From assembly GCF_003096835.1 (NCBI RefSeq), contig NZ_QENZ01000003.1, positions 744,001 through 808,000 on the forward strand: DNA of 64,000 nucleotides, in the 5' to 3' direction. The notes under the pieces were generated by a model. That model saw nothing but the letters and a program-made list of their open reading frames with translations. It searched no databases and was not told where the DNA came from. Numbering within the stretch: the first letter of the stretch is position 1; every line of letters begins with the position of its first letter. The position numbers and the translations under genes are program-made. This document shows, one piece after another, positions 35,168 through 48,901 of the stretch. Source of the stretch: Balneicella halophila (GTDB lineage Bacteria > Bacteroidota > Bacteroidia > Bacteroidales > Balneicellaceae).

Positions 35168-35217
35168 CAAAGTTACTTTCCTTTTAGTAGTGGTAGGTTT
35201 TACATTATTTTGTTTAC

Positions 35218-35305
35218 GAAGTCCCGCTTTCCGTTCCTATCTTTTTCTTGCTTTCGCACCGAGTTCTCCACCCACAAAAAAGGATAACCACTGCAATTGG
35301 GGCTA
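35218..35305. repeat. Flavobacterial-type interspersed intergenic repeat
   Basis: The stretch begins GAAGTCCCGCTTTCCG and ends AATTGGGGCTAA. On the complement this is AGCCCCAATT, then CCTTTTTT in the middle, then GGAAAGCGGGACTT. I recognise this layout (AGCCCC...CCTTTT...GATA...GCGGAAAGCGGGA) from intergenic repeats of Flavobacterium-like genomes. Assignment is from memory; only one copy is in this window. Confidence 0.5.
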
Positions 35306-35341
35306 ATTATTAGTGTTTTATCACTGTTTGTTTTACAAATC

Positions 35342-36618: not shown

Positions 36619-36650
36619 TGCGTGAAATACATTTTAAAGTTTTGGTTGTG

Positions 36651-36745
36651 TTTCGCTTGTATATTTCCATAATAAGGTTGGAAGTTTCTACGATTAACCG
36701 AATATTAATCACTACAAGCGAAATGTTTTTTCGACAGAGGTCGAA
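36651..36745 (+). promoter_or_regulatory. Structured leader of purL
   Basis: TTTCGCTTGTA (36651-36661) is a perfect inverted repeat of TACAAGCGAAA (36713-36723). It is followed by a hairpin, TTCGAC-AGAG-GTCGAA (36730-36745). Together they could fold the 5' leader. It lacks recognisable purine or other known riboswitch cores, and no T-tract follows. Confidence 0.45.
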
Positions 36746-47236: not shown

Positions 47237-47623
47237 ATGGAAGCAACAAAATCGGAAGGAAGAGGAAGAGACGATATTTTTTCAAAGGTAGTGAGAGCGG
47301 GTAGAAGAACGTATTTCTTTGATGTAAAGGCTACACGTAATGATGATTACTATCTTACACTTACAGAGAGTAAAAAAAACACTCAAGAAGATGGAACAGT
47401 GCACTATGAAAAGCACAAAGTTTTTCTTTATAAAGAGGATTTTGACAAGTTTGTAGATGGTTTGACTGAAGCAATCAGTTATATCAAAGAACATAAGGGA
47501 GATGATGAGTCAGCAGTCCAAGCAGTCCAGTCTGATGAAGCAAGCACAGAAAATAAACCTGAATCTGAAACAGAAAACGATACTTATTCAGCAGGAATAA
47601 GCTTCGACGATTTATCAAAATAA
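47237..47623 (+). CDS. DUF3276 (PUR-domain) nucleic-acid-binding protein
   Basis: A 128-residue protein. Residues about 10-85 form the PUR-alpha-like domain of DUF3276: DIFSKVVRAGRRTYFFDVKATRNDDYYLTLTESKK is the diagnostic run, here noted by its parts RAGRRTYFFDVK and DDYYLTLTESK. The acidic tail (about 90-120) is disordered. Members bind single-stranded nucleic acid. It lies alone, with its own promoter and terminator. Confidence 0.85.
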   Translation: MEATKSEGRGRDDIFSKVVRAGRRTYFFDVKATRNDDYYLTLTESKKNTQEDGTVHYEKHKVFLYKEDFDKFVDGLTEAISYIKEHKGDDESAVQAVQSDEASTENKPESETENDTYSAGISFDDLSK

Positions 47624-47652
47624 CAGATATGTTAAATACTTAAAATAAGTTT

Positions 47653-47690
47653 AGCATTCTTTCAAAACATAAGAATGCTTTTCTTTTTTA
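47653..47690 (+). terminator. Intrinsic terminator after the DUF3276 gene
   Basis: A perfect 9-bp stem AGCATTCTT (47653-47661) with AAGAATGCT (47671-47679), followed by TTTTCTTTTTT. Confidence 0.85.
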
Positions 47691-47790
47691 TAAATACACT
47701 TCCTGCTTTCATAATATAATTGTTACAATGATCTCAAAGTAGCCTCTTATTTCTCTAACTGCTTAAATTGTAATTATTTTCATAATAAAT

Positions 47791-47821
47791 TTGCGAGGTT
47801 AGTAAATGATTACTACCTTTG
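47791..47821 (+). promoter_or_regulatory. Promoter of the rpsL-to-rpoA ribosomal operon
   Basis: TTG at 47791-47793, a 20-bp spacer, TACCTTTG at 47814-47821. The ATG of rpsL is 127 bp downstream, so a leader of about 120 nt is expected. Confidence 0.8.
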
Positions 47822-47825
47822 CACG

Positions 47826-47947
47826 GCAAAATAGACAGGATTTTCCAATGTGATTTGGGTACAAAAACCTTGTCCTATAAGGGGATAAGAAGTCATTTGT
47901 ATCCTGTTTTTTGTACTTAAATTAGAGGATTTTTTTAAATTATTTAT
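47826..47947 (+). promoter_or_regulatory. Structured rpsL leader
   Basis: Two inverted repeats cross: ACAGGAT (47835-47841) with ATCCTGT (47901-47907), and GTACAAAAA (47859-47867) with TTTTTGTAC (47908-47916). A small hairpin, CCTT-N7-AAGG (47868-47882), sits between. The two long pairings can form only as a pseudoknot or as alternatives, which suits an autoregulated ribosomal leader. With 47624-47825 this makes up the 324-bp gene-free gap. Confidence 0.5.
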
Positions 47948-48331
47948 ATGCCTACAATACAACAATTAGTAAGAAAAGGAAGAAAAAAGCTAGAGACTAA
48001 AAGTAAGTCTGCTGCTTTAGACGCCTGTCCTCAGAGACGAGGCGTATGTGTGCGTGTTTATACTACCACACCTAAGAAACCAAACTCTGCCATGCGAAAA
48101 GTGGCAAGGGTAAGACTCACGAATGGAAAAGAAGTGAATGCTTATATTCCAGGAGAAGGACATAACCTGCAAGAGCACTCTATAGTTCTCATCAGAGGAG
48201 GTAGGGTAAAAGATTTGCCAGGTGTACGTTATCATTTAGTGAGAGGTACATTGGATGCTGCAGGGGTTGCAGGAAGAACGCAACGTCGTTCTAAATATGG
48301 TGCAAAACGTCCTAAAGATGCGAAAAAATAA
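47948..48331 (+). CDS. rpsL: 30S ribosomal protein uS12
   Basis: A 127-residue decoding-centre protein. It has [12 protein letters not shown] at 40-51 and [12 protein letters not shown] at 85-96. The lysines that change in streptomycin-resistant strains (Lys43/44 and Lys88 here) are intact. It is the first gene of the long ribosomal operon, behind a structured leader. Confidence 0.98.
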
Positions 48332-48424
48332 AGGTTGTTCCCCAATAAAGGTTGAGTAAATGCATTGCGCGTTGAAGACTAGCATAAGGGCAGCTTTAGT
48401 AGTGAATAACTTTATAATTATACA

Positions 48425-48901
48425 ATGAGAAAATCAAAACCAAAAAAGAGAATTATTCTACCAGATCCTCGTTACAGTGATACGCTAGTAACGCAATTTG
48501 TCAATAATCTAATGTACAGTGGCAAGAAAAACCTTGCTTATGACATTTTTTACGGAGCATTGGATATTGTAGGCAATAAGATGCAAGACAAAGAAGAATC
48601 AGAATTAGAAATCTGGAAAAAAGCGTTGGAAAACGTAACACCACAAGTAGAGGTGAAAAGTAGAAGAATCGGTGGAGCAACATTTCAGGTACCAACTGAG
48701 ATAAACCCTTCAAGAAAAGTTTCTGTAGGGATGAAGAACCTAATACTTTTCGCACGTAAGCGTTCAGGTCGTTCGATGAGTGAAAAATTAGCTGCAGAAA
48801 TTTTAGCTGCATATAATGAAGAAGGTGCTGCTTACAAAAGAAAAGAAGATACCCATAAAATGGCTGAGGCCAATAGAGCATTTGCCCATTTTAGATTTTA
48901 A
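48425..48901 (+). CDS. rpsG: 30S ribosomal protein uS7
   Basis: A 158-residue head-assembly protein binding the 3' major domain of 16S rRNA. It opens MRKSKPKKR and has [16 protein letters not shown] (about residues 76-91), a family landmark, and the [18 protein letters not shown]-like tail. It lies 93 bp after rpsL, with no visible hairpin between, and 30 bp before fusA. Confidence 0.98.

Follow-up and report, generated by a model that had tools for sequence, protein, structure and literature searches.

An RNA element in the rpsL-rpsG gap and the structured rpsL leader of Balneicella halophila

The gap between rpsL and rpsG in the ribosomal operon of Balneicella halophila harbors an RNA element that is conserved, covarying and apparently uncatalogued, and that is better supported than the folds of the 5' leader with which the operon begins. 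Both lie in a stretch of 64,000 nucleotides, referred to here as the window; of the two, the gap element is the firmer and more useful finding. The leader itself is plausibly a structured rpsL leader, and such leaders have been termed multiform in other phyla. With about even confidence we read the whole as a diverged leader of a promoter-proximal hairpin class that heads the rpsL-rpsG-fusA-... operon, with S7-type feedback at positions 48350-48395.

The Bacteroidota-type promoter of rpsL (47790..47821, + strand) was read directly as TTTG at 47790-47793, a 20-nt spacer and TACCTTTG at 47814-47821, in line with the consensus TTTG/TAnnTTTG (PMC7366714). Downstream on the same strand follow a 5' leader of about 120 nt (47826..47947; from sequence and folding, with an inferred start site), rpsL for ribosomal protein S12 (47948..48331; an open reading frame with its ATG at 47948 and relatives 81-93% identical) and rpsG for ribosomal protein S7 (48425..48901; recognized by its open reading frame, its place after rpsL and a sequence motif). 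Promoter and leader are thus where the initial annotation had placed them. An automatic scan called a promoter like that of the window upstream of rpsL in 226 of 231 distinct regions, some of these calls being wrong, for example that at L146. The upstream regions were taken from the best-scoring rpsL matches listed and are a non-random sample.

The gap element (48350..48395, + strand) reads GGTTGAGTAAA-hairpin-TTGAAGA-CAGCT, its consensus being GGUUGAGUAAA-hairpin-UUGAAGA-CARCC. The arrangement TTGAGTAAA - hairpin - TTGAAGA is present in 48 of the 124 rpsL-rpsG gaps compared, a count that includes duplicate or near-identical loci. The search pattern fixed some flanking letters, so that invariance there is partly built in; the apical stem was unselected. 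In an alignment of 40 gap sequences including that of the window, 95.7% of the cells are paired, and 84 cells carry a change on both sides, whereas shuffles average 26.6. The covariation score amounts to 0.469 against 0.164 in shuffled alignments and at most 0.126 when the structure was slid. The weakest of the five measures is the number of pairs with both-sided change, which is 6 versus 5.0 in shuffles, 22 of 500 of which were as high. The apical helix is paired in 93% of its cells and shows both-sided changes in six of its eight pairs. The outer GGUUG/CARC helix is 100% paired and nearly invariant, its 3' arm being partly fixed by the cutting of the rows. Outside this helix, TTGG and CCAA may form an additional stem in many of the gap sequences, as judged by eye. 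L115 had been left out of the 41 gap sequences before alignment A4, and alignment A6 left out the window as well as L071, L085, L088, L097, L118 and L122.

Model R3, which was built without the window, matches positions 48351-48394 with 27.9 bits (E 5.9e-5), and its next match in the window reaches 12 bits. The plain pattern of the element, expected 0.01 times per window, was found once, in the rpsL-rpsG gap. No Rfam family matched the gap at its gathering score, weaker matches having E-values of 1.7 or more, and no published description of the element was found in the limited set of papers searched. Two other RNAs in the window do match Rfam families: a purine riboswitch aptamer (RF00167, 62 bits) at 36637-36734 on the + strand and a Flavo-1 RNA (RF01705, 53.8 bits) at 35216-35308 on the - strand.

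At E 0.01, model R2 of the gap element matches 52 of the 247 genomes searched in the order, with filters that may miss weak matches; 20 of these 52, judged by locus ids, gave a model sequence or a duplicate of such a row. Of the 53 matches, 48 are located in the rpsL-rpsG gap. Of the matches, 47 have E-values of 2.1e-5 or lower; 42 of them follow rpsL at a distance of 45-179 nt, on its contig and strand, and four more sit 528-605 nt upstream of fusA, as a location in the gap predicts; the one further match, in G107, was counted without a gap placement. Six matches are weaker. Those of the window and of G071 are in the gap (G071 as judged from fusA), and the other four, at 24.3 to 31.0 bits, are outside it. 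A phylum-wide draw of 198 genomes returned only the window's own gap element and one weak match of 26.1 bits.

The putative ligand of the gap element is ribosomal protein S7. The motifs AGUAA and UGAAG occur in a stretch of 16S rRNA that we take to be the S7 site, and the gap-element model found nothing above 4.4 bits inside the genome's own 16S gene. By its position the element would be the natural counterpart of the E. coli S7 site, although sequence support for this equivalence is weak. In E. coli, S7 binds the gap between the S12 and S7 genes and represses coupled translation (PMC10931766). The site of the E. coli str operon described there resembles the gap element in its position, in the extended rpsL-rpsG gap and in S7 as the expected regulator; it differs in that the E. 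coli S12-S7 stretch is unmatched by the Bacteroidales model, with nothing above 3.4 bits. Ribosomal-protein feedback on the operon most probably operates at this element: by analogy with E. coli, S7 would bind 48350-48395 and block translation of rpsG and, through coupling, that of the surrounding genes. If this is right, the head leader is free for another role, such as sealing the 5' end or binding another ligand. The gap element also suggests that feedback on the operon need not reside in the head leader; a feedback site has better support in the rpsL-rpsG gap.

The leader contains two exact and mutually crossing inverted repeats on the + strand, as had been reported initially: S1, formed by ACAGGAT (47835..47841) and ATCCTGT (47901..47907), and S2, formed by GTACAAAAA (47859..47867) and TTTTTGTAC (47908..47916). 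With G-U pairs allowed, S2 extends to 17 pairs (47851-47867/47908-47924) and S1 to nine (47833-47841/47901-47909), at which length S1 overlaps the 3' arm of S2. Folding also gives an inner hairpin at 47869..47889 (+ strand), in which CTTGTCCT and GGGATAAG (47869-47876/47882-47889) form eight pairs including G-U. It is a longer alternative to the small CCTT/AAGG hairpin that had been placed between the repeats; the latter is used in the minimum free energy (MFE) structure of the whole leader, whereas the centroid takes the longer one instead.

The computed energy is -26.6 kcal/mol with S1 forced and -27.8 kcal/mol with S2 forced, a difference of about 1.2 kcal/mol, and pair probabilities reach 0.44 for S1 and 0.56 for S2. 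In the S1 fold, here called fold I, GCAAAA (47826-47831) additionally pairs with TTTTGT (47909-47914) and so closes the 5' end. Since these outer-stem bases belong to the 3' arm of S2, S1 and S2 as nested folds are alternatives. The crossing had been interpreted as a pseudoknot or a switch between two folds. Alternative, nearly isoenergetic folds are indeed predicted, but a conserved pseudoknot is not supported, as the crossing pair was found in only one of 49 comparable long rpsL leaders, that of the window itself.

Among 1000 dinucleotide shuffles of the leader, 9 contained a crossing pair of 7 and 9 perfect base pairs; among 1000 random stretches of 122 nt from the window the share was 0.7%. 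As 64 kb comprise about 525 such stretches, about three to four such pairs are expected per window. The crossing pair is therefore unusual for one leader and expected in a window this long, and there is no evidence of selection on it. The repeats could accordingly be chance matches in an A+T-rich leader that is long merely because its promoter is distant, without any regulatory structure. This explanation is doubtful, if a serious contender: several such pairs are expected by chance in the window, the leader fails the model built from related leaders, and the nearest family lacks such a leader. It sits poorly with the folding of the leader as a whole, whose MFE has a z-score of -2.32 (4 of 200 shuffles were equally low), or -2.9 over the 105 nt that follow the -7 box, and with the finding that long rpsL leaders are structured as a group. 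In addition, G-U stems of at least 15 pairs occur in only 1-1.5% of the controls, and the stem in the window has 17.

Conservation of either stem in relatives, on which the initial annotation had made its proposal depend, was not seen among the relatives searched. The genome is the only member of its family among the genomes searched. The four best FusA matches listed all belong to one family and are 74% identical; the rpsL leaders of this nearest family measure 51-57 nt between the -7 box and the ATG and have neither S1 nor S2. In one of its members, L112, the 56 nt directly preceding rpsL match the corresponding stretch of L037, a Candidatus Odoribacter, without a difference. A DNA search across 393 genomes of the order turned up no homologous leader. 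Some match appeared in 365 of these genomes at E 1 and in ten, the genome itself included, at E 0.001; the best non-self match had an E-value of 8e-5 over 34 nt, and several of the matches listed at rpsL cover no more than the 3' end of the leader and the ATG. Local alignment of the leader to 230 rpsL leaders likewise scored no higher than shuffled controls. A short match, GGGGATAA..GTCATTT, lies in L004 at nearly the same distance from the promoter as in the window; it was rejected, its score of 24 being below the shuffled median maximum of 26. Against the 4227 families of Rfam the leader had no match at gathering score and weaker ones only at E 0.26 or more, in agreement with the earlier failure to assign it to a known leader.

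A long promoter-proximal hairpin stands at the start of many Bacteroidales rpsL mRNAs. Measured from TAnnTTTG to the ATG by the automatic promoter calls, 137 rpsL leaders are 40-79 nt long, and other groups span 115-180 nt and about 200-230 nt. The median MFE z-score is -2.61 for leaders of at least 100 nt (n=67) compared with -0.40 for shorter ones (n=153). In 32 of 49 leaders of 115-180 nt, a set from which L066 and L214 had been left out by eye because of another leader type or a doubtful promoter call, the 5' end pairs so as to close one domain whose end lies at +78 to +98. Such a domain appeared in 12% of shuffles, and when 5' ends were swapped between leaders its mean frequency was 47% and its highest 61%. 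An apical YUGR at +42 to +54 is found in 37 of the 49. A subset of 13 alignable leaders shares a P1-P2-P3 fold in which 16 of 24 pairs are changed on both sides, and none of 500 shuffles was as high on any of the five measures, a result to be read with the caveat that kinship alone can beat such shuffles and that the structure was partly derived from these sequences. A MAFFT alignment of 35 diverse long leaders yielded no consensus structure; hence the class-wide claim rests on folding statistics, and covariation applies to the 13-leader subset only. None of 20 loci with long rpsL leaders matched Rfam at E 0.1.

The conserved sequences of these hairpins might instead be a second, partly decayed promoter rather than RNA, since the apical TTGA and a downstream TTTTG stand at -33/-7 spacing, and complete tandem promoters of the form TTG-N(19-20)-TAnnTTTG, with the spacing judged by eye, overlap the hairpin in L030, L169, L194, L221 and L114. 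We regard this as very improbable. The both-sided changes and frequent G-U pairs of the 13-leader subset fit RNA better than a DNA operator, and RNA and promoter may coexist, with transcripts from promoter 1 carrying the hairpin and those from promoter 2 lacking it. In the five tandem cases the second promoter lies across the 3' half of the first transcript's hairpin, and its -33 TTG coincides with the apical TTGA; L146 also has a second -7 box, but without this TTG/TTGA coincidence.

A second long type of rpsL leader, present in 22 of 234 upstream regions (L040 having been left out of 23), has a highly conserved core, GAAACCTGAYAA...GRCA..TATAGGTTTC, and includes L203, L236, L198, L187, L020, L192, L098, L105, L181, L213 and L226. 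Its loop GAGAC looks complementary to a downstream GTCTC in several cases, so that a pseudoknot is possible, and all seven of the leaders of this type that were scanned lacked an Rfam match at E 0.1. Conservation is also strong where transcription begins: 145 short leaders start with CAnnCC followed by A/T-rich bases (C1 99%, C5 94%, C6 89%), as read over the first 16 nt after TAnnTTTG; their nucleotides 4-9 are paired at 0.50 compared with 0.36 in shuffles.

Several features place the window leader near the hairpin class. It is of a suitable length, folding of its first 105 nt yields a single domain from +5 to +93, and S1, at +14..+20/+80..+86, lies close to P1, the closing stem of the class hairpin at about +11..+16/+75..+80; S2 does not. 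Other features do not agree with this assignment. The covariance model R1, built from the 13-leader subset, scored the window at 6.8 bits (E 0.43 in 801 bases) in the wrong register, and the apical YUGR at +42..+54 is absent. The 115-nt MFE structure is an S2-type fold, which puts the window among the 17 of 49 leaders that lack the 5'-closed domain. The pairing mass at its 5' end was reached by 7.3% of 300 shuffles, and the maximum row probability of its closed state is 0.61 against a median of 0.98, with 41 of 48 other leaders higher. Averaged pair-probability maps were uninformative (S1 at the 68th percentile, S2 at the 24th), and an energy-gap measure of the closed state was discarded, as its value for the window indicated that the constraint did more than forbid pairs. 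Membership of the hairpin class is thus unproven, and so is the status of the window leader as a divergent structured leader.

We nevertheless consider it most likely that the leader is a strongly diverged local version of the Bacteroidales promoter-proximal hairpin, a homology that we infer. S1 and the outer stem GCAAAA/TTTTGT would close this hairpin in fold I, pairing the 5' end of the transcript with about +90, and S2 would be a competing fold peculiar to the Balneicella halophila genome instead of a conserved pseudoknot. Such a leader would most probably tune the stability or translation of the operon mRNA, either through a bound protein or simply through its sealed 5' end. The results suggest that rpsL leaders are rebuilt family by family.

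Alternatively, the leader could be a genuine two-state switch or a pseudoknot, sensing a ligand such as S12 or another ribosomal protein and controlling the whole operon by flipping between S1 and S2, but this is unlikely. The two folds lie within about 1.2 kcal/mol of each other and both have appreciable pair probabilities, the 3' arm of S2 serves as partner in S2 and in the outer stem of fold I alike, and rpsL leaders with alternative antiterminator folds are described from other phyla (PMC2965389). However, the crossing pair is confined to one of 49 long leaders, with a homologous leader in none of the 393 genomes. A simple scan detected no terminator-like site in 47600-48500, and the S2 fold leaves the start codon uncovered, 23 nt downstream of its 17-pair stem. 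The proposal of an autoregulatory or antitermination leader therefore holds as far as a long structured leader is concerned; it is weakened by the absence of a terminator-like site for antitermination in that scan and by the better support for feedback at the rpsL-rpsG gap. More improbable still is a combination of two RNA controls, in which the S7 gap site, matched in roughly one in five of the order's genomes that were searched, would act alongside a bistable, genome-specific leader that swaps S1 and S2 for another ligand, for example S12.

The occurrence of the gap element across many Bacteroidales families would make the question raised in a 2024 review (PMC10931766) directly testable in gut relatives of Bacteroides. 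As for the head leader, comparable elements are described in other lineages. The rpsL-leader of Naville and Gautheret (2010, PMC2965389), described in Listeria, Xanthomonas, Pseudomonas and Rickettsia, is multiform and without a globally conserved sequence or structure. The window leader shares with it a structured region upstream of rpsL and alternative folds, but those leaders are terminator/antiterminator attenuators, whereas the simple scan found no terminator for the window leader; the term Bacteroid is absent from that paper. The rpsL motif of Candidatus Pelagibacter (PMC2704228) is likewise a 5' UTR structure that heads a merged ribosomal operon, and its ligand is given as unknown. It consists of a bulged stem and a three-stem junction and its reported occurrence is limited to Pelagibacter and marine metagenomes; no Rfam family matched the window leader at gathering score. 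Within the same phylum, the L13, S4, S15 and S16 leaders of Bacteroidia and Flavobacteria (PMC7247131) are similarly lineage-specific leaders of ribosomal protein genes, but they belong to other genes, the table in the excerpt of that paper containing no S12 or S7 leader.
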